Shown here: in pieces, positions 17,453-40,170 of the stretch
How positions within the stretch are numbered: position 1 is the first letter of the stretch
How the letters are laid out: each line of letters starts with the position of its first letter
Origin: Actinomycetota bacterium
GTDB lineage: Bacteria; Actinomycetota; Acidimicrobiia; IMCC26256; PALSA-610
Direction: 5' to 3'
DNA length: 64,000 bases
Assembly (NCBI GenBank): GCA_003134555.1
Contig: PLBO01000042.1
Location: forward strand, 38,040-102,039
Notes under the pieces: generated by a model
Database searches by the model: none
What the model was told of the DNA's origin: nothing
The model's input: the letters and a program-made list of their open reading frames with translations, nothing else
Made by a program: the position numbers and the translations under genes

Positions 17453-17614
17453 ACCAGGAGGCTATTCGTCACGGCCCCGATCCAGCGACGTGCTCGTTGG
17501 CTCGTGTAGTCCGAGTCGTGGCGCCGCTGGCAAGATCGCACGCTGACGGAGCGCACGATGGACCTCCGGAGGTCTGCAGTGAATGAGCATCTTTCAGTGC
17601 GTTCGAGCGGGCCA
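17453..17614. other. Gap upstream of hsdR
   Basis: 162 bp with no gene. It presumably contains the hsd promoter. Nearby, within the end of the next gene, 17642-17657 forms a tight hairpin (cgcact-tttc-agtgcg). Confidence 0.4.
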
Positions 17615-17869
17615 TTAGCTGGCTCGCTTCGTACGTGCCTGCGCACTTTTCAGTGCGAGGTGTGCCATGTAGGCGGATTGGGCGTGCGCTGCACGTCGTC
17701 GTCGATCTGCGAGCGTTAGAACGCCATCGGGGTCGACTTGACGCTCGAATCGGCTGAGTGCTGCTGCACGAGCCGGTGCAGTACGTGCGCTGGGGTCGCT
17801 CGTGTGCGACCAGCTTGCGTGCGCTGCGCTGCGTGCTCTAAGGCTTCGCTGAGACTGTGACAAAGACAT
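17615..17869 (-). CDS. Small basic helical protein, 84 aa
   Basis: MSLSQSQRSLRARSAAHASW, then SARTAPARAA, then FERQVDPDGVLTLADRRRRA and a C-terminal ALKSAQARTK. This composition and order resemble a recurring family of small, Arg/Ala-rich proteins of unknown function in actinobacterial genomes and mobile elements. The recognition is by memory of the pattern and is not certain. It is the last gene of the element's replication block. Just upstream lie a 6-bp dyad and a motif also found before the primase gene, suggesting its own regulated promoter. Confidence 0.65.
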   Translation of the reverse strand: MSLSQSQRSLRARSAAHASWSHTSDPSARTAPARAAALSRFERQVDPDGVLTLADRRRRAAHAQSAYMAHLALKSAQARTKRAS

Positions 17870-17884
17870 AGCTGTGCTCCAGAG

Positions 17885-17926
17885 GTATCGGATTTCGATA
17901 CGCCGCTGGAGGCAATGCCTAAGGCC
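17885..17926 (-). promoter_or_regulatory. Dyad plus shared element motif upstream of the 84-aa gene
   Basis: GTATCG-gattt-CGATAC (17885-17901) is a perfect 6-bp dyad, followed at 17908-17926 by GGAGGCAATGCCTAAGGCC. A near-identical 20-mer lies at 20786-20805 upstream of the primase gene, again 40-50 nt ahead of a leftward start codon. Probable binding sites of an element-encoded regulator or a shared promoter core. Confidence 0.55.
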
Positions 17927-18158
17927 AGGTCGTGCGTTTGGGTTTGGTTGTGCTTGCTGTGCTCAGAAGTTGCCCGACGCCGTGGGCGGGAGTGTTTCGT
18001 TATCGGCCGGGTGCGATTGCACTGGCTCAACTCTGCGCCATAGTTCGGCGATTGCCTTCGCACGAGTGCGTGCACTGGATCATCCGTAATCCGGGTGCAC
18101 TGCTCGGGCTTAGCACCGGGGCGAAGTATCGAGCTTCGCCACGGTTGTTATTACCACT
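17927..18158. other. Intergenic stretch between the HNH gene and the shared motif
   Basis: No convincing gene. The tetramer-rich word gtgcactg recurs near 18069 and 18095, without regular spacing. It could hold a replication origin for the prim-pol, but no iteron array is evident. Confidence 0.3.
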
Positions 18159-18596
18159 TCACCACTGTCCGTCTTCGGCCCCGGCACAGTCGTACTGCCG
18201 CAGCCACTCGTCCGTCGACTCAAACACACTACGGTCGTAAGACATACGGGCGTCGGATCGTTCCCGAATGTTGGCGATGCCACTCGTGGCACCTTGTGCA
18301 CGGTTGCACGTTCTACACATTGCTACTTCGTTTGCTTCGATGCTCGGACCTCCATCGGCCACGCTGATTATGTGCGCCGCCTCTAGGTGTTGCGGATGGG
18401 TTGCCGGTACGTTCGCTAGCATCGTGACTCCGCAACCGGGGCACGGTGTCATATCGAAGTCCCGTTGTAGGTTCGCACGGATTGCCTTATGCGCTCCGAG
18501 TCCACGAACGTCACCGGTCGATGAAGTGCTTTTCGGAAACGGGGTTGCCTTCGCCACGGTTGGCTTGCGGCCGGAGTGTCTCGTACCTCTACGCAT
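18159..18596 (-). CDS. HNH endonuclease domain protein
   Basis: A 145-aa protein. A basic N-terminus (~45 residues) is followed by CPGCG (C52, C55), LEAAHIISVADGG (H75), EANEVAMCRTCNRA (N90, C94, C97): an HNH nuclease with a zinc-knuckle of two CxxC pairs. Such small HNH proteins nick or cut DNA and are common in phage, satellites and integrative elements. Start ATG 18596 overlaps the stop of the upstream zinc-ribbon gene by 8 nt, implying coupled translation. The target and role (replication, packaging or interference) are unknown. Confidence 0.85.
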   Translation of the reverse strand: MRRGTRHSGRKPTVAKATPFPKSTSSTGDVRGLGAHKAIRANLQRDFDMTPCPGCGVTMLANVPATHPQHLEAAHIISVADGGPSIEANEVAMCRTCNRAQGATSGIANIRERSDARMSYDRSVFESTDEWLRQYDCAGAEDGQW

Positions 18597-18774
18597 CGTG
18601 TTGCATCCGCTGGTGAATCTCGTTCACGTTGCCGGTTTGTAGGAACTCTTCACGGTCGGCACCGGCCTTGCACTCGGCGCAAAGGTGTGACGTTCCACGG
18701 ATGACGCCGCCGTAGTCAAACCGTTGGTCGACAAGCTCGGCTGTCGTTCCGCAGTGCGTGCATTCTCCGGTCAT
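18589..18774 (-). CDS. Small zinc-ribbon protein, 61 aa
   Basis: Two CxxC pairs, C5/C8 (ECTHCG) and C32/C35 (LCAECKAG), define a compact zinc ribbon with a helical tail. It sits between the prim-pol (149-nt gap) and the HNH gene and overlaps the latter by 8 nt. It may be a DNA- or protein-binding adaptor for HNH or replication; no specific family recognised. Confidence 0.68.
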   Translation of the reverse strand: MTGECTHCGTTAELVDQRFDYGGVIRGTSHLCAECKAGADREEFLQTGNVNEIHQRMQHDA

Positions 18775-18922
18775 TGGGTAGCCTTTCGGGGGTCGGTGGC
18801 AGGGCCGCCACTCGGTTGTTTTTCGAGAAGTCTCGGTGGTCTCGGTGGAGCCCGTTTAGGGGGAGCCGAGTAAAGCTCGGTGCGGGGTGGTGCCTATAGG
18901 CACCGCCGAGCAACTAGCCCCT

Positions 18923-20737
18923 TCACCGTGCTCGGCGTTTTCGGGGGGGAGCCGAGACTTTTTCGGAGACGAGGTAGTAGCACTTGGCATTGCCTTTGCA
19001 CAGGAACCCCACTTCGCCATCGGTCACCATTTGGTCACGAGTAGCACGGTGCCGTTTGTTGTCTCCGCCGCACTCTCGTTCGAGGTCGGCCCCAACGATC
19101 ATCGGCTCGTTAGCGAGCACCGTTCGGATTCGGTTTTTGCGTTGGTCTTCATTTTCTTGAATGCCTCGCAGTTTCCGCTCAACCTTCGTGCCGGTTTTGA
19201 TGATGCGTCGGTCGATATCGTTGAACTGCGTCTCGAAAGCTGCGACCGCACCCGATCGACCTTCGGCCGAGAATGTTCGGATGCCGTCGTCGTCCTTCGT
19301 GTACATCCATAACGAGTCCGGCCAGTCGTCTAGTCGAGTCGCCCCACGTGTTCGTGTGTCGCTTGCACGTCCGGTGTGAGCAACAACAACCGAGTCCGAT
19401 ACGTTCGCTCGGAGTTTGAACTCGTCAAGTGCTTCGAGATACGCCCCAACGTCGGTGTTCGAGTTTTCGTCTCCGATGAATGCACGGGCGAACGGGTCGA
19501 TAATGACAAGCTGCACGGCGTGCTCGACGCTTGTACGCACGAGCAGGTCCATTCCGTCCGGTGTCAAGATGTCGAGTCGTCGACCCCGCAGATTCCACGG
19601 AATCACTCGATCGGTGTTCGTGATCGTGAGCGTGCGTAACCAACGTCGGAACTTCGCCTCACTTAGTTCGTAGTTGAGATACAGCACCGAGCCCTCGAAG
19701 CTCGTCGGCATTTCTAGGAACGGTTCGCCATCAACCAGCGATTTCACAAGATTGATTCCGAGCGTCGTCTTTCCGGTTTTGAACTGCGCCGTAAGCAACG
19801 AGTTATCGCCTCGCTCGTGCAACCCTTCAACCATCCACACAATCGGCGGATTCGGGAGCTTCAACTCATCCGTAAGCGAGCCGGGGCTAGGAGGTTGGCT
19901 ACCCTTGAACCGTTCTTGATTGAGCAGTGCTCGGGCACGGTCTTTGATTTTGAGGTTGCGCAACTCTGCGAGCACTTCGTGTGACTCGTCACTAACCGTG
20001 GCCTCTTGCTTCGCTTGCTCTCGCTGCCAAACCGACGCCATCGTGCGGTCAACCTGGCCGGGGTCTTCATTCCATTCGCCCCACGACTCTGCAATGAGCC
20101 GAACCGTGGCAACGTAATCAGCGGAGTTGTCGAGAATGCGGGCGTAGTACCCTGCAACTCGTGCAAGGTTGTGATTCCACGTGCCGGGCTCGGGTGTGCG
20201 CAGCATGTCGGATAGCCCCGTGGAAGGGGCGAAGCTACCGACACCCGCCCCCTCCACGAGAAGTGTGTCGAGCCACTCGGGGACTTCGAGCGGTTCAAGA
20301 TCGTTCAGCCACTTACGACCGGGTGCCGGTGGAGCTACGACGTAGCCTCGTGAGCACCGCACGTCGATGCCAGGGGCCAGTTTGCTCACACTGTTGGCGT
20401 AGAGCGTCTCCGTGCGGTACAGCCGGTGTGTTCCACCGTGCGGAGTCGATGCCACGAGGGTTTCGTGCTCGGGCGCAATCTTCATCCAGTGTGCCGGGCC
20501 GTCGAGCTTGATGTCCAGGTCGATCACCACGAGATTGGAACCGGGGCCAGTTGCAATGCCAATCCACGCCGTGGGCCATTGCTTCCACCACGATTCGATC
20601 GTGGCGGAGTCGGTGCTCGCCTTATCTGGCCAACCTTTTAGGTGTGGCGTTCCGGCTCTCGCTCCGGTCGAGTGCAACGGGTGAACTCGGAAACCACGTG
20701 CGGCGTATTCGAGAGCTTGCTTGACGGTTGCGGACAT
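18923..20737 (-). CDS. Bifunctional primase-polymerase / RepA-like AAA ATPase (element replication protein)
   Basis: A 604-aa protein. The N-terminal archaeo-eukaryotic-type prim-pol domain (residues ~6-165) shows VIDLDIK with the DxD metal site at 73-75 and STPHGGTHRLY with the active-site His near 103. A central linker is followed by a RecA/RepA-like ATPase with Walker A AQFKTGKTT at 317-325 and VIIDPFARAF as Walker B. A winged-helix-like C-terminus follows. It probably primes and unwinds element DNA after excision, as RepPP-type proteins do in actinomycete elements. Start ATG 20737. Confidence 0.9.
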   Translation of the reverse strand: MSATVKQALEYAARGFRVHPLHSTGARAGTPHLKGWPDKASTDSATIESWWKQWPTAWIGIATGPGSNLVVIDLDIKLDGPAHWMKIAPEHETLVASTPHGGTHRLYRTETLYANSVSKLAPGIDVRCSRGYVVAPPAPGRKWLNDLEPLEVPEWLDTLLVEGAGVGSFAPSTGLSDMLRTPEPGTWNHNLARVAGYYARILDNSADYVATVRLIAESWGEWNEDPGQVDRTMASVWQREQAKQEATVSDESHEVLAELRNLKIKDRARALLNQERFKGSQPPSPGSLTDELKLPNPPIVWMVEGLHERGDNSLLTAQFKTGKTTLGINLVKSLVDGEPFLEMPTSFEGSVLYLNYELSEAKFRRWLRTLTITNTDRVIPWNLRGRRLDILTPDGMDLLVRTSVEHAVQLVIIDPFARAFIGDENSNTDVGAYLEALDEFKLRANVSDSVVVAHTGRASDTRTRGATRLDDWPDSLWMYTKDDDGIRTFSAEGRSGAVAAFETQFNDIDRRIIKTGTKVERKLRGIQENEDQRKNRIRTVLANEPMIVGADLERECGGDNKRHRATRDQMVTDGEVGFLCKGNAKCYYLVSEKVSAPPRKRRAR

Positions 20738-20785
20738 AGGTCACCTTCGGTAGCTACGAGGTCTTCCCTCGTGTGTGGCGCTACC

Positions 20786-20805
20786 GGAGGCTGACGCCTA
20801 AGGCC
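20786..20805 (-). promoter_or_regulatory. Shared element motif upstream of the primase gene
   Basis: GGAGGCTGACGCCTAAGGCC is a close copy of 17908-17926. Both contain AGGC-N3/4-GCCT followed by AAGGCC. It lies 49 nt upstream of the prim-pol ATG in a 209-bp gap with no other gene. Confidence 0.55.
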
Positions 20806-20946
20806 GGGTTTCACGTCGTGAATATGGCAAGTTGTATTGCTGTGCTGTCAACTTTCATTGCAGAGAGGTCGAGCAACACCGGACTGACGGACGAGACCAA
20901 TCGACGCCAATCCGGTGTGCTCTTTCGGCAAGCGAACTGCGCAGGC

Positions 20947-22500
20947 TCAGTTACCGAAGTCTTGGTTATCACGTTCAACCTTCCGCCGATGGCGTAGGGC
21001 CGAGGCTGTTACTTTGTCGTTAGGCTTGCGAGACCGTGGCCGGTTCGTAGGCAGGTCGAGCGCATTCGCCCGAGCCTTGAACTGGTTAGCGGTCTCGTTC
21101 TCACGTGACCACTGCCACACGGACTCCAACGCATTGAGGTCGCCCGCTTGCGCTTTGTGCACGAGCGCCACGGTTGCGTCATCCATCTTGGAGAATCCTC
21201 GGGTCGCCCGAGCGGCGGTAGCAAGGATGGCCTTAGCCTCTTTCTCACGTGGCCACGAGTAGCCGTGCCACAAAAGGGTTTGCTTGTCTTTCCACGGCGT
21301 CTCTTTGCGTTCGTCGACCTTGGGCTCGTGCTCCCGTGTTGCGATTCTCACGCCGGGCGTGTCGGCTGCACGGGTTTCGATGGCGTACGTGTGCTGTCCG
21401 CCATCGGTTGCGTGGCTGGCTGTTTGCCGTGCTGTGACTCGCCGGTCAGTCGTCGACCGGTGCGAATCATGCTCGGCTGCGCTGCCTCGTGATCCGTCTA
21501 GGTCGCTGTCTTCGCTTCCGGTGCCGTGAAGTACGGGGTTGGTAGCTACGCCTGTTCCGAAGATGTCGACGGCGTAATCTGCGACGAAGTTTTTCGGTTT
21601 CGCCGATTCCACTTCGTCGCCAGCTTCGCCCGGCTGGTGGTCGTATTCGACCGCTTCCGCTGCCATTATTCGGCGAAGCTCGGCACGCTCCGCCCTGTTT
21701 GCCGGGACGAGCTTGGCGTTGCCGACGCACTTTGCCGAATGGTTCCGGCTGTAACACGTGTGGTCGCTCACGATAGGTCCGTCGTCGACACAGTGTGCGT
21801 AGTCACCGCTCGGGTAACTCGTTCCGGGGCTCGGGCGCACGAGGTCGAGAAAGTCACCACGCCTCGGCTTTGCACGGGCTTCGGCCGCAGTGGGAAGGTT
21901 GAGCCAGTAGTCGAGGTTCTGTTTGCGGTCGGTCTCGGGCAAGCTCCATTCGGGCTCATTCCAGCCACGCCCGTTGCGATCGGTCTCGGGCACAAACGGC
22001 ACGTCGTGCCACGTAATGCCGACGTCGCCGACGTCGTGACCGGTGCACGTGATCTCGGGCACGCTGCGCAATGGCGTCGAGCGGACTTCCACTGCATATG
22101 TGTCTGAGGCCGGGGTGTCGAAGCCGGGCAGCTTGCGTAGAGCGGGGTCGTTGATGCCGTCGAAGCTCACGTGGTCGCACCACGAATCCGTGCATGAGCA
22201 CGTGTCGTCGAAGCGGGTTTGCTGCTCGGGTGTGCGGCGGCGCAACGGGCTAGCGCCACTGGTGGCGGCTGCGAAAGCCTTGGTTGCGGCTTCGGTGTCG
22301 GCTGCACGGGCAGCGGGGGTCCGCCACGCTCGGTAGGGGCGATGCGGCTCGGGGAATGGCCCCGTAGCGTCAGGGTCTCGGTTAAACGCCTCGGTCCAGT
22401 TACGTAGGTCGACTGTGGGAAGGTCGTCAGACCTAGACCGCCAGTGGCGGTAGGTTGAGTCCTCGCCGTACAAGTTGATGTAGGTCTCGGTCAGTCTCAT
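20947..22500 (-). CDS. Unknown 517-aa element protein with a Cys/His cluster
   Basis: Not recognised. The start is placed at ATG 22500 (MRLTETYINLYGED); an upstream in-frame GTG at 22566 is possible. The sequence is hydrophilic and low in predicted secondary structure. It has a Cys/His cluster CSCTDSWCDHV around residue 107, further Cys/His in HCVDDG and HTCYSRNHSAKCVGN, and a basic C-terminus ending in SRKPNDKV and RHRRKVERD. Zinc or nucleic-acid binding is plausible. It lies between the integrase and the prim-pol, where related elements carry excision, regulation or transfer genes, but it shows no FtsK/TraB or relaxase motif. Confidence 0.72.
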   Translation of the reverse strand: MRLTETYINLYGEDSTYRHWRSRSDDLPTVDLRNWTEAFNRDPDATGPFPEPHRPYRAWRTPAARAADTEAATKAFAAATSGASPLRRRTPEQQTRFDDTCSCTDSWCDHVSFDGINDPALRKLPGFDTPASDTYAVEVRSTPLRSVPEITCTGHDVGDVGITWHDVPFVPETDRNGRGWNEPEWSLPETDRKQNLDYWLNLPTAAEARAKPRRGDFLDLVRPSPGTSYPSGDYAHCVDDGPIVSDHTCYSRNHSAKCVGNAKLVPANRAERAELRRIMAAEAVEYDHQPGEAGDEVESAKPKNFVADYAVDIFGTGVATNPVLHGTGSEDSDLDGSRGSAAEHDSHRSTTDRRVTARQTASHATDGGQHTYAIETRAADTPGVRIATREHEPKVDERKETPWKDKQTLLWHGYSWPREKEAKAILATAARATRGFSKMDDATVALVHKAQAGDLNALESVWQWSRENETANQFKARANALDLPTNRPRSRKPNDKVTASALRHRRKVERDNQDFGN

Positions 22501-22594
22501 GGTCTCGGGTCTCGGGTGCTGGTCTCTCTTGGTTGGTCCGGGGTCCTCTCCCCCGACATACCACACAACCTAAGCCTCACGAGCAGATCACGCC

Positions 22595-22795
22595 CTATGG
22601 TGGAGTGGCCCGATTCCCAGGTTTCGAGCAGATTCGAGCCGGTTTCGGGCTGCCTGGGGAGTCAGACGACGACACAGGAGAGAGATTTATCCACAGGCTA
22701 GTGGGGTGGATTGGCCGCCCCCAAAAAAGCCTGAATGCCCTTCGCCATGCTCTGACTGCGAGCACGGCCAGTCCTGCTACAACGATGAGCGTCAC
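22595..22795 (-). CDS. Possible small membrane protein coupled to the integrase
   Basis: A 66-aa ORF whose GTG start shares bases with the integrase stop (GTGA). The N-terminus [17 protein letters not shown] is a short hydrophobic helix followed by basic residues; the rest is unstructured. Stop-start overlap supports translation after the integrase, but the sequence matches no family I know. Confidence 0.42.
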
Positions 22796-23685
22796 GGTTG
22801 CTGCTTGAGACGCCGGTACGCTGCGTGCGCTCGCTCGTCGGCGTTGCTAGCCCCGTAGCGTCGAACCATCTGGCTCGAACGCCATCCGGCTAGGCGCATG
22901 AGGTCGGCTTCCTGGCCGCCCGCAGCGAGCCACTCATGTGCGAACGTGTGGCGGAACCGGTGAGCGTGCACGTTCGCCACGCCTGCTTGGTCGCCTCGAC
23001 GTCGCAGCATCTGGCCGATGCCGTTGTCGAGCATCGGGCCGAGGTGTCCCAGCCACAGCGATGGGCTGTCCGCACTCGGGTGTGCTGATCGTGCACGCAG
23101 GTACCGGGTGAGAGCTTTTGCGGTGCGATCGTCGAACGGGCACGCACGGTGACGTCGGTTTTTGCCGAGCACGTGCGCAACTTCGAGCTCGAAGTCGAGA
23201 TCGTCGACCGTGAGGTGTGCAAGCTCGGCTCGGCGCATGCCGGTGTCTCGAAACAGTTGGATGATTGCGGTGTCTCGTCGCTGCTCGAACCCACTTCCGC
23301 TGCACGCTTTCAGCAGTGCGTTGACGTCTTCATCGGTGAGCACGGGCACGGGTTTTTCGGGCACGAGGGGTGCCTTCATGCGGGCCATTGGCGACTCGGT
23401 TACGAGGTCTTCGTCGAGCGCCCATTTCCAGAACTGCTGCAACGCCCGAAACCGCACGGACGCTGTAGCCGGTGACCGGTGTTCGAGCACGTCGGCGAGG
23501 TGCTTCTCGACGTGGCGACGGGTGATCGTTCTGACGTCGACCGGTAGCTCGTGCTCGACGAGGAACGTATGCAACTGTGCCACTGCGCCCAGGTAGACGT
23601 CGATCGTCTTCGGTGCCTTGTTGGCCGCACGGAGCGAGTACCGCCACTCCTGGCCAATGGTGTCCAGTGCGTAAGCCTTGCCCAT
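22792..23685 (-). CDS. int: Tyrosine recombinase / integrase (XerC/D-like)
   Basis: A 297-aa integrase starting at ATG 23685 ([11 protein letters not shown]) with GGGAGG 8 nt upstream. The longer ORF to 23844 reads through tRNA sequence and is rejected. A SAM-like N-terminal core-binding domain ([20 protein letters not shown]) is followed by the catalytic domain with [12 protein letters not shown] (Arg I), [14 protein letters not shown] (H-x-x-R) and the nucleophile in QMVRRYGAS. The active site is complete. It lies beside the 3' end of tRNA-Ala within attR, so it is the enzyme expected to have inserted the element. Confidence 0.93.
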
Positions 23686-23818
23686 CCGTTGGCCCTCCCG
23701 AGCGCCTGCAATGCGTGGTTTCCATCGCAAGAGATCGGGATAGTTATCGGCTCGTCGAGCGCTGTGCTTGACCACCGATCGAACCAAAGGCCGAAAAACC
23801 CTTGTAAACAAAGGCTTT

Positions 23819-23863
23819 GTGGAGACGATGGGACTCGAACCCACGACCCCCTGCTTGCAAAGC
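23819..23863. repeat. attR: 45-bp repeat forming the 3' part of tRNA-Ala
   Basis: Identical to 4723-4767. It restores a functional 3' half to the tRNA after insertion. Confidence 0.93.
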
Positions 23864-23893
23864 AGGTGCTCTAGCCAGCTGAGCTACGTCCCC
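23820..23893 (-). tRNA. tRNA-Ala (anticodon TGC)
   Basis: Read leftward from 23893: acceptor arm ggggacg pairs with cgtctcc, D-arm gctcagctggctagagc, anticodon arm cctgctttgcaagcagg with TGC, T-arm gtgggttcgagtcccat, discriminator A at 23820. CCA is not encoded. It is the insertion target of the element; the 3' 44 nt belong to the att repeat. Confidence 0.96.
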
Positions 23894-23977
23894 GAGTAGG
23901 GGTCACAGCGTAGGCGAAGGCATCCTTTCGCTCACGCCCCGGAGACAACCGAGGAGGTTGCTCGGTACCATCCAGCC

Positions 23978-24838
23978 ATGCGCCGTCGCCGTTGGTTGTT
24001 CGCCGTAGCCGCACTCGTCGTCGTCGGGGCCGGCTGCGATTTCCCGAACATCATTCCGCCCGGCGCCGCGCCGCTGCGTTACCGCGACCCGATCTTCACG
24101 ACGGTCGTCAAGACCGCCGACATCACTTACGGCAGCGCCGTGAACGCGTCGAGCCAGACGGTCACCCTCAAGCTCGACGTGTACAAGCCACCGGCGACCG
24201 ACACCGTCACGAAGCGTCCCGCCATCATCTGGGTGCACGGCGGCTCGTTCAGCAGCGGCAGCAAGACGTCGCCCGAGCTCGTCGACGAGGCGAACGTCTT
24301 CGCCAAGAAGGGCTACGTCAACGCGTCGATCGACTACCGCCTCGAGCCGGGCGGCTGTTCGGCCGCGAGCGCGACCCCGACGTGCATCCGCGCGATCGCG
24401 GAAGCAAGGGAGGACGCGCAGACTGCAGTGCGATTCATGCGCAAGAACGCGGCGGCCTACGGCATCGACCCGACTCGCATCGCGATCGGTGGAACGTCGG
24501 CCGGAGCGATCACCGCGCTCCAGGTCGGTTACTCCACGGCTGAGAACCCCGCGAGCGCCGTGCGCGCGGCCGTGTCGCTGTCGGGCGCGAACATCTTCCC
24601 CAAGATCGGCGCGGGTGACGCCCCCGCACTGCTGTTCCACGGCACGGCCGATCCACTCGTTCCCTACCAGTGGGCCGTCAACACGACGAACGCGGCGAAG
24701 GCCGCGGGCCTCGACGTGTTCCTCGAGACGTGGCAAGGCGCCGGGCACGTGCCGTACGTGCAGTTCCGCACCCAGATCCTCACGCAGACGAGAAACTTCC
24801 TCTACGGAGAGATGGACCTACAGCACGCGGCGCACTGA
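23978..24838 (+). CDS. Lipoprotein alpha/beta hydrolase (esterase), copy 1
   Basis: A 286-aa exported esterase. A type II signal peptide ends in lipobox VGAGC (Cys near residue 20). The hydrolase fold shows WVHGGSF (oxyanion HGG), GGTSAGA with nucleophile Ser near residue 170, a late Asp in HGTADPLVPY, and GAGHVPY with the catalytic His. This is the HSL/BD-FAE-like class acting on short-chain esters. A close paralogue lies at 25342-26202. The C-terminal part from GAGDAPALLFHGTADP on is nearly identical. It is the first chromosomal gene right of the tRNA. Confidence 0.88.
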   Translation: MRRRRWLFAVAALVVVGAGCDFPNIIPPGAAPLRYRDPIFTTVVKTADITYGSAVNASSQTVTLKLDVYKPPATDTVTKRPAIIWVHGGSFSSGSKTSPELVDEANVFAKKGYVNASIDYRLEPGGCSAASATPTCIRAIAEAREDAQTAVRFMRKNAAAYGIDPTRIAIGGTSAGAITALQVGYSTAENPASAVRAAVSLSGANIFPKIGAGDAPALLFHGTADPLVPYQWAVNTTNAAKAAGLDVFLETWQGAGHVPYVQFRTQILTQTRNFLYGEMDLQHAAH

Positions 24839-25341: not shown

Positions 25342-26202
25342 ATGCGCCGTCACCGGTTGTGTTTCGCCGTTGCGGCGCTGGCGGTGGTCGGGTCGGGATG
25401 CGATTTCCCGAACATCATTCCGCACGGCGCGGCGCCGCTGCGTTACCGCGACCTGATGTCCATGACCGTCGTCAAGACTGCCGACATCACGTACGGCCGC
25501 GCCGTGAATGCGTCGAATCAGACGATCACGCTGAAGCTCGACATGTATCGGCCGCCGTCGAGAGACCCGATCACGAAACGTGCCGCCATCGTGTGGGTGC
25601 ACGGCGGAGCCTTCAAGGGCGGCGACAAGACGTCCGGTGAGATCGTCGACGAGGCGAACCACTTCACCAGGGAGGGGTACGTCAACGCGTCGATCAACTA
25701 CCGCCTCGAGCCTGATGGCTGTTCCGCCGCGAACGTGACCCGAACGTGCATCCGCGCGATCTCGGAAGCACGAGCGGACGCGCAGACAGCAGTGCGATTC
25801 ATGCGCAGGAACGCGGCGGCCTACGGCATCGACCCGACGCGCATCGCGATCGCCGGCTCGTCGGCGGGCGCTATCACCGCGCTCGAGGTCGGGTACGCGA
25901 CGCGCGAGAACCCCGCGAGCGCTGTACGCGCAGCCGTGTCGTTGTCGGGCGCGGACCTCCTCAGCACGATCGGCGCGGGTGACGCGCCCGCACTGCTGTT
26001 CCACGGCACGGCCGATCCACTCGTTCCCTACCAGTGGGCCCTCAACACGACGAACGCCGCGACGGCCGCTCATCTCAACGTGTTCCTCGAGACGTGGCCG
26101 GGCGCCGGGCACGTGCCCTACGCGCAGTTCCGCGACCAGATCCTCACCCAGACGAGGAATTTCCTCTGGGCCGAGATGGACCTCAAGCACGCCGCGGACT
26201 GA
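25342..26202 (+). CDS. Lipoprotein alpha/beta hydrolase (esterase), copy 2
   Basis: A 286-aa paralogue of the gene at 23978, colinear along its whole length: the same lipobox region (VGSGC), HGGAF oxyanion site, GSSAGA nucleophile elbow, HGTADPLVPY and GAGHVPYAQF. Changes concentrate in surface positions and the middle strand segments. The pair looks like a tandem duplication that has diverged somewhat, with a small reverse-strand gene caught between the copies. Substrates are unknown; both are predicted to be anchored outside the cytoplasmic membrane. Confidence 0.88.
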   Translation: MRRHRLCFAVAALAVVGSGCDFPNIIPHGAAPLRYRDLMSMTVVKTADITYGRAVNASNQTITLKLDMYRPPSRDPITKRAAIVWVHGGAFKGGDKTSGEIVDEANHFTREGYVNASINYRLEPDGCSAANVTRTCIRAISEARADAQTAVRFMRRNAAAYGIDPTRIAIAGSSAGAITALEVGYATRENPASAVRAAVSLSGADLLSTIGAGDAPALLFHGTADPLVPYQWALNTTNAATAAHLNVFLETWPGAGHVPYAQFRDQILTQTRNFLWAEMDLKHAAD

Positions 26203-26212
26203 GGTCGAAGCG

Positions 26213-28210
26213 TCAGGATCCCGAGCCGGACCGGGCTCGGGCCGTGTCCACGTGCGAGTAGCCGAATCCGACGGGACGCGCGCGCACGCCCGGAAAAGCC
26301 TCGGCGGTGTCGGGTGCTGCACGAGGCGCCGGGGCCGCGCTCGTCGGCGTCACGGGCAGCGAGAGCAAGAACGTGCACCCACCTCCCGGTGTCGGCGCAA
26401 GAGTCAGCTTGCCGTCGAGCAGCTCCGCGAGCTGGCGGCACAGATGGAGCCCGAGGCCGGTGCCGCCTCGACGTCTCGTCGAAGATTGGTCGAGCTGCAC
26501 GAACCGCTCGAACGCGCGCGCCCGATCCTCCGCCGGAATCCCCGGGCCGTGGTCGACGACCCGGAAGAAGACGTCGCCTCCGGCGCTCGTCGCGAACAGC
26601 TCGATCGGTCCCGAGGGCGCGTACTTGGCCGCGTTCTCGACGAGGTTCAGCAGGACGCGCGCGAGCTTCGATCGGTCGGTGACGATCGCAGCCCGGTCAT
26701 CGTGACTCTGCACCAGTCGGCCCGCGGTCGCGGTGGCCGTATCGGCCTCGATCGAGGCCAACAGCTCCGCGATGTCGACCGAATCGCGTTCGAGCGGAAC
26801 ATTGGTGTGCTCCGCCGCGGCAACGAGGAGGAGCTCGTCGATCAAACGCTGAAGTCGGCCACCCTGTTCGACGGTCATGTCGAACAGCTGCGACCGCTGC
26901 GCGGCCGGCATGCGGCCGTCGAGCCGATCGAGGGTGTGCACGGAACCGAGCATGACGGCGAGGGGCGTGCGCAGCTCGTGCGAGACCGCAGCGATGAAGT
27001 CGTCCTTTTGGCGGTTGAGGTCTACCTGCAAGGCCAATGCCGTGACGAGATCCTCGTGCATCAGCGCGTTCGCCACGATGAGCGCGGCGTGATTCGCGAA
27101 CGCGCCGACCGTCTCGACGCGGCTGTACGCCCCCGCATTCGACGGGCCGTCCCGGAACACGAGCAGCACCACGGTGCCCGCCGTCTCGTGCACAGCCGAC
27201 ACCGCCAGCGCGCTTCCGGCGCCGGCGGCCATGCGCGCGATCTCCGGGGCCTCTTCCGCGTTGGTTTCGCGTCCGTGGTAGCGCTCGGCGAAGGCGAGCG
27301 CCGCCGCGACCGCGCCGGGCGCCGCGAGCCGCTGTCCCCGATCGTCGGCCCACGCGCCCACGGGCGTTCCCTCGACGTCGGTGGCGCAGCACAGCGCCTT
27401 CATTCCGGTCGCCAAGGCGCGCGCCTCGGCGGCAAGTGAACGCATCGCGTCGTCGAGAGCAAGGAGTCCGGCGGTGCGCGCCGACGATTCGTAGAGTCGC
27501 TCGAAGCGCAGGTGCTCGTCGCGTTGCCCGACTGCGTAACGAGCGTTGAACCCGACCGCGAGCACCAACGGCACGAGCAACAGCACCGCGAACGGCGCGC
27601 GTGTGAAGAGATCGAGCGCGACGAGGCCGATGGGAGCTGCCGCCAGCGTCGCGAGCAGCCCCGTCGACGCCGAACGAACGAACACGTGCTGGAACGGGGC
27701 GTCCTCGGCCCTCGAGATGACGACGGCCGTCGCCACCACGTCGATGAGCGAGAAGCACAGCGCGGCGGCGAGGGCGGCGCCCCATGCGGCCATGTCGTGC
27801 TCCGACGTGCGCCCGAGCGCTTGGAACCCGACACCCGCGATCGTGACGGCCGCCAAGCGATTTGCGACGTTGAAGAGAACTTTGAGCGGCCCGCGATGCT
27901 GCGCCACCATGTTCACTGTCTCCGCGACCGCGAACGCCGTCGCCAGTCCGATCGGACCGACCACGAAGAACCCCACCACTAGCACGGCATCCGCGGGTGT
28001 GAACGTGAACTTGTGCCGCTGGAGCTCGAGCGACATGTCGAACGCGTTGGTCACGACGAACGCACCGGTCAACGTGAGAATCGCCGCGGGCGATCCGATC
28101 GGTGCCGCGCTTTTCGCGGCAAGCACCGCGAAGCTCGCGGCGAGCAGCAATTGAACGACGATGACCTCGCCTACACGGCGTTCGAGCCGCGTCGGGTTAC
28201 CCGGCCGCAC
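26213..28210 (-). CDS. Membrane sensor histidine kinase with GAF-like domain
   Basis: A 665-aa kinase from GTG 28210, 5 nt after the subtilase stop. TTG 28219, overlapping that stop, is an alternative, and the longer frame to 28420 only reads the repeat DNA. About eight hydrophobic segments span residues 18-210. A GAF-like region follows, then HisKA with SHELRTP (phospho-His near residue 411) and HATPase_c with NLVENAAKYAP and GTGLGLHLCRQL. It is the last gene of a response regulator / subtilase / kinase operon, so its partner is probably the single-domain regulator at 29772. Confidence 0.88.
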   Translation of the reverse strand: MRPGNPTRLERRVGEVIVVQLLLAASFAVLAAKSAAPIGSPAAILTLTGAFVVTNAFDMSLELQRHKFTFTPADAVLVVGFFVVGPIGLATAFAVAETVNMVAQHRGPLKVLFNVANRLAAVTIAGVGFQALGRTSEHDMAAWGAALAAALCFSLIDVVATAVVISRAEDAPFQHVFVRSASTGLLATLAAAPIGLVALDLFTRAPFAVLLLVPLVLAVGFNARYAVGQRDEHLRFERLYESSARTAGLLALDDAMRSLAAEARALATGMKALCCATDVEGTPVGAWADDRGQRLAAPGAVAAALAFAERYHGRETNAEEAPEIARMAAGAGSALAVSAVHETAGTVVLLVFRDGPSNAGAYSRVETVGAFANHAALIVANALMHEDLVTALALQVDLNRQKDDFIAAVSHELRTPLAVMLGSVHTLDRLDGRMPAAQRSQLFDMTVEQGGRLQRLIDELLLVAAAEHTNVPLERDSVDIAELLASIEADTATATAGRLVQSHDDRAAIVTDRSKLARVLLNLVENAAKYAPSGPIELFATSAGGDVFFRVVDHGPGIPAEDRARAFERFVQLDQSSTRRRGGTGLGLHLCRQLAELLDGKLTLAPTPGGGCTFLLSLPVTPTSAAPAPRAAPDTAEAFPGVRARPVGFGYSHVDTARARSGSGS

Positions 28211-28215
28211 GGCAC

Positions 28216-29775
28216 TCAACCCCAGCTCTGCGACACCCACAGGTCGGAAGTCCACCGTGACGCTGTCCACCGGCTTGCGGTCCAGCGACTGGCAGTCCAC
28301 CGGCTGGCGGTCCATCGGCTTGCCGTCCAGCGTGACGCCGACCATTCGAGCGTCGTCCAGCGGCTGGCCGTCCACCTGCTCGCAGTCCAGCGCGACGCCG
28401 TCCAGCGCGACGCGGCCCACGTGTCATCGGTCCAGCGGCTCGCCGTCCACGGCATCCCCTTCTCCAAGCCGCGGTCCAGGCCGTCGAAGGCGACCTGGAA
28501 GTGCTGCCACCAGTCGCTGCGCGCGACGGCGTTGTCGGCAGCCGCGAGATCGATCGCCCCCGCCTGACGCCCGATCTGCACCGCGCTGTCGACGAGCGCG
28601 CCTTTCACGTCGTCCGGAGTCGCGTTGCCGTGGTGCGAGAGCAGCACGGCGGCTGCGCCGGAGACGACCGCGGTACTCATCGACGTGCCGGTGCCTCGGA
28701 AGTAGGCGGCGTCGACGCGTGCGGTCGGGTGTTGTACATCGATCGTGGAGCCCGGGGCCCGGAGCGAGACCAGTGACACGCCGGGTGCGACGACGTCGGG
28801 CTTGGCATGGCCCTGGCTGCGCTCGCGGCCCGACCAGGTCGGAATCGTGTCGTCGTTCGTCGTCGCGGTACCCCGCGTGTCAGTCGCGCCGACCGTGATG
28901 ACGTACGGGTCGTCACCGGGCGAGGTCACGCCCTTGTCGCCGTTGTTCCCGGCCGAGGCAACGACGGTAATCCCGGAGGCCCACGCGGCCTCGGCTGCCG
29001 CGTCGAGCGGGTTCTGACGGTAGGGCATCGGCGCATCGAGGCCGAACGAGAGGTTGAGCACGCCGATGTCGTATGTGTCGCGATTCGTGACGGCCCAACC
29101 GATGCCGGCGATCACGCGCGAGAGCGACGAAGAGCCGTCGGCTTCGGCGACCTTCACCGATACGAGCGTCGCGCCGGGCGCAACACCGAGATGGCGCGTC
29201 GGTCCGCCGCGGCTGGCCGTACCGTCGCCGGCAATGAGCCCGGCCATGAACGTGCCGTGCCCGTAGTGATCGATGCCGTCACCCTCGCCCGAGAAGTCGG
29301 GTGACCGAACGAGCCGGGAACCGTTCAAGTCGGGCGTGTCCGCGACACCGGTGTCGACGAGCGCGATGCCGACGCCGCGGCCGGCGTCCGATGACCAAGT
29401 TGCACCGGGGTTGATCGCGGCGACCTGCGGGTCGAGCACCGAGGCGTCGAACGAATCGCCCGTCGGGTGCATCGCGGCGTCCGGCGTGACGTGCAACGTC
29501 GGGTTCGCGCCGAGTGCCGCGATCCCGTCGTCAGAGACGTGCGCGGCCACGGCCGCGATGATCGGGAGGGACAAGTCGACGGTGCCGCCGACCGACTCGA
29601 CCGAACGGGCCGCGGCGTCGCTGCTCGCGGCTTCGACGATGACGGCCCGGGGCGCTGCGCCGTCCGACGCGTGCGCCGGGGCCGCGCTTGCGATTCCCGT
29701 GCCCACCAGTACCAGCGCGACGAGTATCCGTATCGATCGCGGCCCGATGGAGAGGGAACGACGCGTCCGCATCAT
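28216..29775 (-). CDS. Subtilisin-like (S8) serine protease with W-x4 repeat tail
   Basis: A 519-aa secreted protease. A signal peptide follows MMRTRRSLSIG (ends near APAHA). The catalytic triad is clear: LVDTGVADTPDL (Asp), HYGHGTFMAGLIAG (His), GTGTSMSTAVVSGAAA (Ser), plus SAGNNG for the oxyanion Asn. The last ~80 residues are a tail with Trp at strict five-residue spacing, mostly T-A-S-R-W units. Start ATG 29775 overlaps the response-regulator stop (ATGA), and the kinase follows immediately. Linking a protease to a two-component pair suggests regulated extracellular proteolysis or ligand processing for the kinase; that is inference. Confidence 0.9.
   Translation of the reverse strand: MMRTRRSLSIGPRSIRILVALVLVGTGIASAAPAHASDGAAPRAVIVEAASSDAAARSVESVGGTVDLSLPIIAAVAAHVSDDGIAALGANPTLHVTPDAAMHPTGDSFDASVLDPQVAAINPGATWSSDAGRGVGIALVDTGVADTPDLNGSRLVRSPDFSGEGDGIDHYGHGTFMAGLIAGDGTASRGGPTRHLGVAPGATLVSVKVAEADGSSSLSRVIAGIGWAVTNRDTYDIGVLNLSFGLDAPMPYRQNPLDAAAEAAWASGITVVASAGNNGDKGVTSPGDDPYVITVGATDTRGTATTNDDTIPTWSGRERSQGHAKPDVVAPGVSLVSLRAPGSTIDVQHPTARVDAAYFRGTGTSMSTAVVSGAAAVLLSHHGNATPDDVKGALVDSAVQIGRQAGAIDLAAADNAVARSDWWQHFQVAFDGLDRGLEKGMPWTASRWTDDTWAASRWTASRWTASRWTASRWTTLEWSASRWTASRWTASRWTASRWTASRWTASRWTSDLWVSQSWG
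28222..28449. repeat. 15-bp repeats encoding 16 Trp at five-residue spacing
   Basis: In the protease frame the tail reads W-x4-W sixteen times, ten of them exactly A-S-R-W, with interruptions TDDT, TTLE and TSDL. At DNA level this is a degenerate 15-bp tandem repeat. The unit is stop-free in several frames, which explains the long spurious frames here. Confidence 0.9.
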
Positions 29776-30188
29776 TTGGCCGTACCGAGAATGTTGTGCG
29801 CGAAGTTCGCGAGATCTTCGGGTTTGAAGGGCTTGGTCATGTAGTAGTCGGCCCCGGCCTTCCAGCCTTCCCACACGTCGGCGTCGGTGGCCTTGGCGGT
29901 GAGGAGCACGACGGGGATCTCGGCGACAGCGGGGCGCTTGCGCAGCTCTTGGAGAACGTCGAGGCCGTCGCGGCCGGGCATCATGACGTCGAGCACGATC
30001 AGGTCGGGATGCAACCGCTCGGCCTTCTCGAGGGCGGAGAAACCGTCCTCGGCGGTCGTGACCTCGAAGCCCTCGGCCTCGAGGTTGATCACGACGAGCG
30101 CGCGCATCCCGGGGTCGTCGTCGGCGAAGAGGATGTGCACGTCGGGACGGCGGCAAGCCGCGATCTCGGACAGCGGCGCTGGAGTCAT
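29772..30188 (-). CDS. Single-domain response regulator (CheY-like receiver)
   Basis: A 138-aa receiver without output domain. VHILFADDDPG holds the acidic pocket, LIVLDVMMPGRDGL the phospho-acceptor Asp near residue 67, VVLLTAKATD the Thr, and YYMTKPFKPEDL the Lys. It should take phosphate from the kinase at 26213 and act by protein contact. It is the first gene of the operon and translationally coupled to the subtilase. A short 78-bp gap to the MprF-fusion stop must hold the promoter. Confidence 0.9.
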   Translation of the reverse strand: MTPAPLSEIAACRRPDVHILFADDDPGMRALVVINLEAEGFEVTTAEDGFSALEKAERLHPDLIVLDVMMPGRDGLDVLQELRKRPAVAEIPVVLLTAKATDADVWEGWKAGADYYMTKPFKPEDLANFAHNILGTAK

Positions 30189-30266
30189 ACGAGAGCTACG
30201 ACCGATACGCGAATTTCTTTAGCGAATGGCCCTTCTCAGCGGCTTTCCCGCGACCTCTCGTCCGGT

Positions 30267-33200
30267 TTACACCTCTGATTGAGCCGGCGGGCGCGGCTTC
30301 GCCGTCGACTTCCCCGACGCAGCCGGCTCGACCGGAAGCTGGCGCGGACGCTCCCGCGCCTCGTCGCCCGGCGGTCTGAAGAACCGCCCGATGATCGGGA
30401 GTTCGAAGAACGACTCCGCCCGCGCGACCGCGATCGACGCGCTCAGCATGTGCTCGGGCGAGTCGTACGCCGCGTAGCGGGCGTGCCACTCCGGCTGGAA
30501 CTTCTCGTTGAACGTCCACAGCGATTCGATCTGCATCGAGTCGCCCACGCGCTCGAGGATCCATTTCTGGGCGCGCTGCACGAGCCGGTCGCCGGCTTCG
30601 CTCGCGAGCACCGCCCGGAACGTGGCGAAGTTGAGCGCGAGGCCGACCGAGCCCTCGATGCGGAGGTGTTCGATGGTCTTGGCGACGATCAGCTCGGTGA
30701 CGCCGTTCGGGACGTCGCATGCCTCGCTCCGGCGCATCAGGTCGAGCGACCAGCCCTCGATCGCGCGCGCGGGCACGTACTGGCAGAAGCCCGCGGGGCG
30801 ATCCTCGGAATCCAACGCGACCGCGAGCAGCAAACCGCGATCGTCGGGCTCGAACACGCGGCCCAGCGTCATCGAGAAGCCGCGTTCGACGTCGCCACGC
30901 CGGCTCTCGGTCATCAGGCCGCGGAGCTTGGCCTCCATGTCGGGCGCGAGCCGCGCCGGATCGAAGAACTCGACGCGATACCCCGCCTTCTCGACCCGGC
31001 CGACCGACTGGCGAAGGCTCTTGTTCTGCTTGCCGTCGAGGCGGAATCTCCGCACGTCGACCACGGCTTCGTCCCCGATGTACAGATCGTGCATCCCGCT
31101 CGCGCGGTAGACGGGCAGCCAGTCGGCGCCCGCTCCCATCACCGCGACCGGCCAACCGTGCTCGTCGGCGAACTCGCGGAACGCTCGCCACGCCTCGGCC
31201 CGCTGGCCGACCGGGCCGATCGGATCCGGCGAAACGAGGGCGATCCCGTTGTGCACGCGGTAGGCGACGAGCGTGTCGCGGAAGCCGAACCACTCCTTGT
31301 CGTCTCGCAACGCGAAGTACGACAGCGAGTCGACGCCGTATTGCTCGACGATGAACCGCGCCCGCTCGCGTGAGAGCGGACGGTACGACGAGATTCGGGG
31401 TGACACCGCCGGGCGGAACAACAACCAACAGAACGAGAGTGCGATGACGACGCCGACCGTGAGCAGCGCGGGCGAGACGAGCCGGTCGATGGTGTTCGGC
31501 AACGGCACGGTCTTCATCCCGACGAGCCGGGCCGCTACCGCTTCCACGATCTTCGGCAACGTGAGTTTCGGGTGCCGCCACGCGACACCGACCGTGCCGC
31601 CGACGATCGCTACGGCGATCGCGAGCAACGCCGCGCCCAGGCCGCGCCGCCACGACGACGGGTTCGCCGGCGCGGTGAAGTCGTCGCGGTGGACGAGCAG
31701 GAAGACCACCACGAGCAGCGCGATGATCGCCTCTTCGATGTCGAGGCCCTTGGTGACGTTGCCGACCACCGAGAGGAGGAGCAGAGCGTTGGCGAACAGC
31801 CACGCGTGCCGTTGTCCGCGGCGGACACCGCGGGCGAGCAGTAAGAGCCCGATCCCGCACATCGCGACGAGCGCGGCCGCCACCTCGGGGATCTCGATCG
31901 GGGTGAACCGACCGAGCGCGGTAAGGCGGGACGCGATCGGCACCGTGACCGCCGACGCGAGGTTCAGTATCCCCGCGAACGCGATCGCGGTCGCCGCGAC
32001 CCGCCGCGTGCGCCGCCGCATTGCGGTGGCGTCGCCCGCCGACGGCCACGTGACCGTGCCCGGATGCTCGGCGACCTCCGCCGGGGGCCAGCACACGCGC
32101 ATGCGTTCGCGCGACGCCATCCGCTCGAGCAACGTGCGCTCCGGCAGATCGCGCGCTCCGTGCCAGAGCCGGGCGCGCAACTCCGACCCCGCTTCGAGCT
32201 CGACCCACGAGCACCGCAGCCGGGCCGCGTACACCGCAGGCAGACCTCCGCGCGTCTCGACTCGATCGACGGTGCGCCCGGCCGTCCCGCAGTTCGCGTA
32301 GAAGGCCCCGCCGCCGAGATCGGTCAACTCGGCCCGGCCCGATTGACCCGTGATGAGTCCCGCACCACCCCCCGCCGCCAGCCCGACCGCGACGCCGCGC
32401 GGTAGGTCGTTGTCGCGCAGGGCACGCGACAACCACGAGATCGACCCGAGCGAGTCGCGCAGCTGCGCGACCACGAACGCCAGCGCGACCACGACGAGGA
32501 TCAGCTCGATCGCGAACCCCGCGGCGAGGAGGCGGAAGATGTGCACGAGGGCGTGGCGTCCTCGGGTCGAGAAGGCCACCACCGGGAAGAAGATCGCGAG
32601 CAGCGCGAGCACGGGCAGGGTGAGCCAAGAGGCGCGCCGGAACAGTCTCCTATAAGTGAACCGCGACGCCACGAGCGCACCCATGTCGGCCGGGTCGGCG
32701 TCTTCGATCCCCTCCAGCCATCGCTGCGAGGGGTCGTCGACGTTCGCGAAACTCGGGAGCACCTCGCGCTCGAGATGGACGACGAGCGGGTGATCGTTGG
32801 GGTCGCGAGGATCGTTGAATGCAGTCGCGGGGTCGAGTTGGTGTCCGGGCTCCACGCGTACGACGCGCACTCCGGCGCCGGTGGCGATCTCCAAGACACA
32901 TGCGAGCGCGACCGTCCACCCGTTCGATTGGAGGGCTTCGGCGGTACGCGCGTCGTACGCGAGCGCCGAGTCACGAATTCCCGGCAGCGCGACGATCGTG
33001 CGCTCCGGCGCCGCGAGGAACGCGGTGAGCGCGGCCGCCAGCCGGGGATGCGCGGCGAGCGCCGCGTCGGGATCGGGACGGCCTTCCCGGAGCATGTCGA
33101 ACGTGTCGCCGGCGAACACGATCACGGCCGGGCCGCGACACCCCTCGATCGCGTGCGCGATCGCCCGGGCAACTTCCCGGGACGAGTCGGTTCCGCCCGG

Positions 33201-33353
33201 CACGAGCCGCAACCCTGCGAATACCAGGACCTGACCGCCGACGGCGACCGAGAGCGGTACCTCGTCGACGACCGAGGGCCGGCGCGATGCGAGCTCGACG
33301 AGATCTGCGCCGGTTTCCTGCGCTGTCGCGTCGTCTTCGGACCCAACCGTCAT
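30267..33353 (-). CDS. Metallophosphatase-like / MprF-type (DUF2156) membrane fusion protein
   Basis: A 1028-aa protein from ATG 33353 (MTVGSEDDAT). Residues ~40-240 resemble a calcineurin-like phosphoesterase: GDTFD (82-86), LPGIRD (123-128) and GHQLD (170-174), in which several metal-binding His/Asn are replaced. A first membrane pair at about 265-330 follows, then a soluble region and about eight further hydrophobic segments. The C-terminal ~330 residues are the DUF2156/LPG-synthetase domain of MprF/LysX type (YRPLSRERARFIVEQYG, LALNFATFRAVLASE), which transfers an aminoacyl group from tRNA to phosphatidylglycerol. The fusion suggests membrane-lipid modification. Confidence 0.82.
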   Translation of the reverse strand: MTVGSEDDATAQETGADLVELASRRPSVVDEVPLSVAVGGQVLVFAGLRLVPGGTDSSREVARAIAHAIEGCRGPAVIVFAGDTFDMLREGRPDPDAALAAHPRLAAALTAFLAAPERTIVALPGIRDSALAYDARTAEALQSNGWTVALACVLEIATGAGVRVVRVEPGHQLDPATAFNDPRDPNDHPLVVHLEREVLPSFANVDDPSQRWLEGIEDADPADMGALVASRFTYRRLFRRASWLTLPVLALLAIFFPVVAFSTRGRHALVHIFRLLAAGFAIELILVVVALAFVVAQLRDSLGSISWLSRALRDNDLPRGVAVGLAAGGGAGLITGQSGRAELTDLGGGAFYANCGTAGRTVDRVETRGGLPAVYAARLRCSWVELEAGSELRARLWHGARDLPERTLLERMASRERMRVCWPPAEVAEHPGTVTWPSAGDATAMRRRTRRVAATAIAFAGILNLASAVTVPIASRLTALGRFTPIEIPEVAAALVAMCGIGLLLLARGVRRGQRHAWLFANALLLLSVVGNVTKGLDIEEAIIALLVVVFLLVHRDDFTAPANPSSWRRGLGAALLAIAVAIVGGTVGVAWRHPKLTLPKIVEAVAARLVGMKTVPLPNTIDRLVSPALLTVGVVIALSFCWLLFRPAVSPRISSYRPLSRERARFIVEQYGVDSLSYFALRDDKEWFGFRDTLVAYRVHNGIALVSPDPIGPVGQRAEAWRAFREFADEHGWPVAVMGAGADWLPVYRASGMHDLYIGDEAVVDVRRFRLDGKQNKSLRQSVGRVEKAGYRVEFFDPARLAPDMEAKLRGLMTESRRGDVERGFSMTLGRVFEPDDRGLLLAVALDSEDRPAGFCQYVPARAIEGWSLDLMRRSEACDVPNGVTELIVAKTIEHLRIEGSVGLALNFATFRAVLASEAGDRLVQRAQKWILERVGDSMQIESLWTFNEKFQPEWHARYAAYDSPEHMLSASIAVARAESFFELPIIGRFFRPPGDEARERPRQLPVEPAASGKSTAKPRPPAQSEV

Positions 33354-34857: not shown

Positions 34858-35322
34858 CTACTCGCTCAGCTCCTCCTGCTCAACGACCGTCACCTCGACG
34901 CCGCCGAGCAGCTCGGAGAACAAGTTGTAGAACGCGGCCGCGAGCACGGTGACGACGGTCAGCAGGCAAACGACGACGAGCCCGATAAGAGTCGCCGCCC
35001 GCAGCACCTCCCATGAAAGGAGGCGGAAATCCTTGTTGTTGACGAGCTGGCCCACGAAGCTCTCGACGCTCGCAACGACACCCGCGGCCGACGCGATCCA
35101 CCAGAGCATGACGCCGGCGACGAGGATCACGATCAGCGCGCACAGGTAGAAGCAGATCGCGACCTTGAGCACCGACCAGAGATCGACCGAGCGGACGGTC
35201 TGCACGTAACGCCGCTCGAAAACCTGCCGCGGAGACGCGACCCGCTTCCGTCGTGGCTTCTTCGGCGCGCGGGCCTCGGGCTTCGCCGGAACGCTTTCGA
35301 GCACGGCCTTGGCGCGCGCCAC
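34858..35322 (-). CDS. DUF3566 transmembrane protein
   Basis: A 154-aa protein. A basic, disordered N-terminus (residues 1-40) precedes VRSVDLWSVLKVAICFYLCA, the conserved entry to the first of two membrane helices. A second helix spans about residues 108-130. This family sits immediately downstream of gyrA across actinobacteria (Rv0007 in M. tuberculosis), as it does here (3-nt gap). Its role is unknown. Confidence 0.88.
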   Translation of the reverse strand: MARAKAVLESVPAKPEARAPKKPRRKRVASPRQVFERRYVQTVRSVDLWSVLKVAICFYLCALIVILVAGVMLWWIASAAGVVASVESFVGQLVNNKDFRLLSWEVLRAATLIGLVVVCLLTVVTVLAAAFYNLFSELLGGVEVTVVEQEELSE

Positions 35323-35325
35323 GTC

Positions 35326-37812
<2,487 letters not shown>

Positions 37813-37828
37813 TGCGCGCTACTCCGAA

Positions 37829-39805
<1,977 letters not shown>

Positions 39806-39852
39806 TCACAGGGGGTGATTTACGTAAAATCAGTGTACCAGAAATCGGGGCT

Positions 39853-40170
39853 TCATCGGGTCTTCCGCGGACCCGCGACGACCACTTTCACGGAGGTCAC
39901 GGAGCCCTCGCCGCAACGCTCGTTGACGCGTTCGACGAGGTCGCTCGAGCCGTAGCGAAGTTGGGTCGCCCAGACCGGCCCGTCGACCTCGATGGTGCAC
40001 TCCCCGTTCCGCACCGATCGCACGTGCGCGTGCGCCGCAACGGCCGGCCCCACGATGTCGGCCCAGCGCGCGGTGACGGTTGCGACGACGTCCGGGGGAG
40101 GCAATCCGAGCTCGCGCCCGACGATCGCGATCGACTCGCTCAGGGGTATCGGCTCGTCACGACGCGTCAT
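39853..40170 (-). CDS. DciA / DUF721 family protein
   Basis: A 105-aa protein of the DUF721 type (ARWADIVGPAVAAHA, then LQ-like strand DGPVWATQLRYGSSDLV, then VNERCGEGSVTSVKV). Members named DciA recruit the replicative helicase in bacteria lacking DnaC/DnaI. Its position between recF and gyrB is the classic actinobacterial one. Start ATG 40170 overlaps the recF stop (ATGA). Confidence 0.85.
   Translation of the reverse strand: MTRRDEPIPLSESIAIVGRELGLPPPDVVATVTARWADIVGPAVAAHAHVRSVRNGECTIEVDGPVWATQLRYGSSDLVERVNERCGEGSVTSVKVVVAGPRKTR

Follow-up and report, generated by a model that had tools for sequence, protein, structure and literature searches.

Three genes lie in tandem on the minus strand of the window (the whole 64,000-nt stretch of DNA analysed here, part of a 4.63 Mb genome): a response-regulator receiver (RR), an S8 protease (S8) and a histidine kinase (HK), in that order (Table 1). 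The RR and S8 genes overlap as ATGA, and the S8/HK junction reads ...GGTTGAGTGCCGTG..., in which a TTG start of the kinase overlaps the S8 stop by 4 nt (TTGA); a GTG a few bases past the TTG is an alternative start. A 735-aa kinase ORF opening at 28420 was rejected as an over-extension, because its initial ~65 residues are a translation of the S8 tail repeat in a different frame. By their Pfam domains, the kinase (HisKA plus HATPase) and the receiver have the make-up of a two-component system. An earlier note on this DNA had described the three genes as coupled by ATGA and near-abutting junctions, with a W-x4-tailed S8 protease next to receiver and kinase; both overlaps, the Pfam matches and 16 in-register tryptophans confirm this description. 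No sigma-70-like promoter was found in window positions 26000-30500, which says little because the genome is high in GC.

Table 1. Features of the receiver-protease-kinase locus, in window coordinates.
Feature	Position	Strand	Basis
Stand-alone response-regulator receiver (RR), 138 aa	29772..30188	-	Response_reg E 9.9e-30, sole domain
Secreted S8 protease with W-x4 tail, 519 aa	28216..29775	-	Peptidase_S8 (PF00082) E 2.6e-43
Signal peptide and putative inhibitor-like prodomain, S8 residues 1-100	29476..29775	-	Hydrophobic segment, then AxA (by eye)
Subtilase catalytic domain, S8 residues 132-399	28579..29382	-	Pfam coordinates
W-x4 tail, 16 W in 5-residue register, ending W-G-stop	28216..28455	-	Register read in 95 tails
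Membrane histidine kinase (HK), start TTG (28219) or next GTG	26213..28219	-	HisKA + HATPase_c; junction
MASE9-like multi-pass membrane domain (MEM) and start of linker	27371..28168	-	Profile A2; PF20972 E 1.2e-4
HisKA, phospho-acceptor, SHELRT	26810..27010	-	E 1.2e-13
HATPase_c in HK	26348..26677	-	E 2.1e-27

The trio is presumed to lie near the replication origin, because gyrA, gyrB, recF, dnaN and dnaA were recognised by eye at 34858-44022. Window positions 4001-24000 have a GC content of 0.60-0.62 (vs. 0.66-0.71 elsewhere) and contain type I restriction-modification-like genes (11916-17452) and a tyrosine recombinase (22792-23685), both assigned by eye; the segment probably represents an integrated island, with the trio beside it. 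At 23978-24838 and 25342-26202 lie two BD-FAE esterase-type genes that resemble each other, in tandem and convergent with the kinase, and a phosphatidylglycerol lysyltransferase-type gene lies ahead of the trio in the window (30267-33353) and at locus L026.

The protease is a subtilase (S8) by its PF00082 domain and D/H/S triad. The triad residues (D141, H173 and S365) are invariant in 22 aligned homologues, and in the larger set of homologues ungapped at these positions they are likewise constant (D 99/99, H 99/99, S 101/101), from which we infer that the protease is catalytically active. Among solved structures, subtilisins and subtilisin-like proteases come nearest, e.g. 3afg (E 1.2e-39); a structure prediction from a four-row alignment gave pLDDT 35.5. 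Residues 1-100, where Pfam gives no match, would include a putative inhibitor-like prodomain.

Between the repeats of the window tail, synonymous differences affect 68% of sites and non-synonymous differences 30%; across 95 tails, the medians were pS 0.53 and pN 0.31, with pS exceeding pN in 87 of the 95. Recent slippage or expansion of the repeat is ruled out, because the repeats diverge at synonymous sites, and on these sequence comparisons the pentads are under purifying selection. Their consensus, taken over 1473 pentads with the tryptophan at i, is S/A/T at i-2, S/T/R at i-1, S/T/A/N at i+1 and G/A at i+2, and the last tryptophan stands one residue before the tail end in 50 of the 95 tails. 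Pentads are uniform within many proteins and lineage-specific (SRWTA, SSWNG, ARWYG, STWKA, VNWGS), and heterogeneous tails are also common (e.g. L033, L041, L203). In 84 cases at 48 loci the W-W spacing is 10 and the middle tryptophan is missing, its place being taken by F (21), L (12) or Y (7); residues L, F, M, I, Y and V together have a share of 0.50 at this site vs. 0.04-0.30 at the other eight positions. The in-register replacement of W by F, L and Y, and the match of one tail to PF01469 (L077, E 2.3e-20; cf. L232, 0.006, and L037, 0.047), suggest that the tail is a pentapeptide repeat with W in its centre. For the window tail itself Pfam gives no match, even with the threshold at E 10, and two further tails have none either. 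Such a repeat would fold as a right-handed quadrilateral beta-helix; for the tail alone, AlphaFold2 without an alignment returned pLDDT 47.8 and pTM 0.12.

A first search with the protease covered 41 genomes (its own and relatives), 26 of which had matches, and 20 regions were taken. The receiver, tailed protease and kinase occur together at the paralogous locus L025 of the same genome and at L027-L031, with the kinase frame of L031 broken in the assembly; L026 has RR-S8 and then a contig end. Downstream of more distant tailed proteases of the same relatives lies another type of partner, a membrane protein that carries GAF, GGDEF and EAL domains. One such locus (L040) has the same neighbours as the trio, and past the esterase comes a tailed protease whose partner is of the GAF-GGDEF-EAL type, perhaps through local exchange of module types. 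The kinase is abutted by a gene with a weak AAA_31 match at L025:12351-13265 (E 3.4e-4), L029:1-162 and L030:5870-6784. Among the 29 HK-type loci in which the kinase stands directly downstream of the protease, a stand-alone receiver lies directly upstream of the protease in 11 (window included), drawn from 10 genomes and 3 families, two of these families outside the window's class. The neighbourhood survey thus finds the trio conserved. The earlier note had gone further and made the protease a fixed member of a two-component operon; the protease is indeed kept in a signalling operon, but the receiver, and even the kinase, can be replaced, 39 of 78 partners being of GGDEF type. The trio reading is therefore partly supported but too narrow, and the constant unit is the W-x4-tailed subtilase with a MASE9-like membrane domain.

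This unit was surveyed with a profile (A1) built from 22 tailed proteases, which gave 40 matches in 21 of 148 genomes of the class at E<=1e-60, and matches in 66 of 396 genomes of the phylum, the lowest-scoring of which stop before the tail. We took 83 regions whose neighbours had not been seen beforehand, covering all but a few of the phylum matches and including one non-profile control (L186). With at least three in-register tryptophans as the definition of a tailed protease, the first 20 regions, these 83 and four pattern-scan loci yielded 101 tailed proteases after removal of one duplicate, L187, which shares a contig with L047. The four loci (L047, L077, L117, L122) were the tailed subtilases among 80 listed from a W-x4 DNA pattern scan, an approach abandoned as a survey tool because it was too noisy and returned mostly simple repeats.

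For 78 of these 101 proteases, collected by sequence alone, a MEM gene is adjacent on the same strand, downstream in 75 and upstream in 3; 15 have none, and 8 are cut by a contig end within 700 nt downstream. The partner frame opens no more than 120 nt from the protease stop in 69 of 70. Tail-less relatives found with the same profile had no adjacent MEM (0/12 with full flanks). Among the 15 rows with fewer than three in-register tryptophans, 12 lack a nearby MEM, 2 are at a contig end and 1 is an exception (L215), in which the protease frame is lost before the tail and a MEM gene is present, divergent. As a control, PF00082 was run against the 21 genomes, giving 116 matches at E<=1e-10, 76 of them not profile hits. 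MEM lies within 3 kb of 27/40 profile hits vs. 0/76 other S8 proteases (Fisher p 6e-17, with genomes not independent and relatedness uncorrected), and none of the 76 is within even 10 kb of a MEM hit. MEM is present in all 21 genomes with a tailed protease vs. 44 of 148 overall. The pairing spans Actinomycetota and two Chloroflexi loci, and no natural fusion of protease and membrane domain was found among the surveyed loci. At five loci (L041, L190, L208, L223, L231) one receptor is accompanied by a tandem of two tailed proteases, perhaps a heterodimer. Our full-text literature searches returned no description of a tailed subtilase paired with a membrane receptor, and the pairing suggests a kind of two-protein sensor that has not been described.

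The 15 unpaired tailed proteases are those of L042, L043, L077, L164 (one of two), L165 (two), L169, L171 (two), L178, L179, L193, L225, L226 and L228. Eight of them, from two families and five genomes, are mostly tandem proteases with a MEM gene elsewhere in the genome: MEM-GAF-GGDEF-EAL in G064, G076 and G123, MEM-GAF-HK in G129 and, in G080, a MEM known as a profile hit only. At L077 and L225 a kinase without MEM is directly upstream of the protease, and at L042 a convergent GGDEF-EAL gene is cut by the contig start. Receptors, too, occur by themselves: for 22 of 48 strong MEM hits the nearest 3 kb contain no tailed S8 (the regions around 20 of these 22 were read and encode none), and the receptor should therefore be able to work alone. 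L254 has, directly in front of a MEM-GAF-HK gene, a 101-aa frame (L254:7137-7442) whose match to the protease is confined to the initial signal and prodomain part.

A single common N-terminal membrane domain could be aligned from 66 partner N-termini. In a 29-partner set that includes the HD-GYP and SpoIIE types, it carries a K-x-x-F-N motif with N in 29/29 and F in at least 90%. The outputs behind it differ: among 78 partners, 39 are GGDEF (including GGDEF-EAL proteins), 31 HK, 3 HD-GYP, 1 SpoIIE and 4 unclassified (broken or cut). These calls were made with small profiles built from Pfam-annotated stretches of the same loci, which distant or broken domains can escape; exceptions in the domain table were read by eye and then confirmed with Pfam for L117, L232 and L172, and L122 was called HD-GYP solely from its close likeness to L117. 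By a crude hydropathy measure, the longest gap between hydrophobic segments of the membrane domain has a median of 30 residues, so that the receptor would be without a large outer domain and would show short loops as its outer face. Cleavage of the sensor by the protease, which had been proposed earlier, is possible but disfavoured, because this membrane domain offers no sizeable outer part to cut.

On a maximum-likelihood tree made quickly from 74 proteases (short search, tail removed, the four partners of type 'other', L191, L202, L207 and L217, left out, and 20 of 71 inner branches open), the output changes 15 times vs. a mean of 27 after shuffling. Considering only its starred branches, 7 changes remain necessary for GGDEF and 6 for HK; the cytoplasmic output of the partner is swappable, with at least seven changes forced by well-supported branches. 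Distances between proteases and between membrane domains were compared for 72 of the 78 pairs (four 'other' and two too-short partners dropped) and correlate with rho 0.33, or 0.27 for pairs with different outputs, a value as high being reached in 0/500 permutations; part of this correlation would be expected from species relatedness alone. In some pairs the whole partner seems to have been exchanged, e.g. between L209 and L219 (protease distance 0.36, membrane domain 0.76).

Since the outer face of the receptor would consist of short loops, detection needs a membrane-borne signal or a partner, and since the constant partner is a secreted protease that is apparently active, an input subunit is the most economical reading. 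Our preferred interpretation, to which we give a little less than an even chance, casts the protease as input partner to a MASE9-like receptor: extracytoplasmic, catalytically active and held at the envelope by its tail. The protease would be secreted and retained through its W-pentad tail, would touch the membrane domain of the receptor, and its condition (maturation, activity, or a bound substrate or inhibitor) would be relayed through that domain to the output; contact, tail role and direction of the signal are what we infer around the observed pairing. In the window the kinase would then phosphorylate the stand-alone receiver, and in relatives the output would be c-di-GMP turnover or a SpoIIE-type phosphatase. 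Against this reading stand the 15 unpaired tailed proteases, the lone receptors, the lack of a fusion and the moderate distance correlation; operon neighbours can, moreover, share a pathway without contact.

The same observations bear on other explanations. The protease might make a ligand by cutting an external protein or peptide whose product the membrane domain senses, the tail merely anchoring the enzyme near the receptor. We regard this as unlikely although worth keeping in view: the triad is fully conserved, and the receptor itself lacks an outer domain and also exists without a protease, but a diffusing product would not require such strict adjacency, and a non-systematic look at the operons noticed no conserved substrate gene. 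A role for the protease as output, in which the receptor would control its production, anchoring or activity for surface remodelling, seems improbable. GGDEF-EAL-type proteins do control surface proteolysis elsewhere (LapD/LapG), to which this role would be loosely similar, and such proteins are among the partners here; the pair persists, however, across chemically unrelated outputs (kinase, GGDEF-EAL, HD-GYP and SpoIIE), and the large outer module through which LapD acts is absent.

The tail could also be a multi-copy peptide signal, with the subtilase cutting its own or sister tails and the membrane domain detecting W pentapeptides; uniform, lineage-differing pentads under purifying selection would fit, yet many tails are heterogeneous, and in-register F, L and Y in place of W are more in keeping with a folded repeat than with a released peptide, which makes this very improbable. 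Hardly credible is the absence of any functional link, the genes being neighbours by descent or operon hitch-hiking: MEM genes often stand alone, but the pairing persists across Actinomycetota and the two Chloroflexi loci despite repeated output changes, and is absent from the 76 other S8 proteases of the same genomes.

If the protease is an input subunit, the pair would form a new class of two-protein receptor, which we put forward only tentatively from the sequences: an active subtilase docked by a W-pentapeptide rod would sense for a MASE9-like domain with HK, c-di-GMP, HD-GYP or SpoIIE outputs. For receptors with purely intramembrane input (MASE and similar domains), the stimuli are mostly unknown. 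An enzymatic outer partner kept through output changes would supply a testable stimulus for such a membrane domain. The cell would read external proteolysis directly, a general bacterial way to sense external proteolysis or protease inhibitors, and the repeat-tailed subtilases of Actinomycetota and Chloroflexi, a widespread class without a name, would gain a function.

Several known systems resemble parts of this pair. MASE9 (PF20972) is the same kind of multi-pass N-terminal domain as the MEM of the partners; of the 29 partner segments compared, 9 match it at E<=1 (the best at 1.5e-9) and most do not. The HD-GYP partner at L117 scores above the Pfam gathering cut-off (34.4 vs. 24.3 bits), and the window kinase below it (22.5 bits), for which reason we call its domain MASE9-like rather than MASE9. 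We know of no protease partner described for MASE9. The best NCBIfam match of the catalytic domain is the T7SS mycosin (TIGR03921, E 5.8e-39), also an envelope subtilase, although the window protease stays under the cut-off of that family (134.2 vs. 278.75 bits). Mycosins end in a C-terminal membrane helix, where the tailed proteases have W pentads, and inspection by eye of the genes called in the window revealed no ESX-like gene. With pentapeptide-repeat proteins (PF00805, PF01469, PF13599) the tail shares the five-residue period, the hydrophobic centre and the small residues at i-2 and i+2; it differs in having W as that centre and, in the window, in having no Pfam match. One paper describes a cyanobacterial subtilase with a W_rich_C domain (PF07483), a tryptophan-rich C-terminal part (PMC2605481). 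The present protein has no Pfam match to PF07483, and its tail keeps a strict W-x4 period. Comparable in arrangement are LapD/LapG and LuxP/LuxQ, each a soluble outer protein with a membrane signalling protein, LapG also being a protease. LapG is, however, a cysteine protease controlled by LapD, and LuxP is not an enzyme; neither system is known to combine a repeat-tailed partner with a shared membrane domain that carries interchangeable outputs, as the pair described here does.
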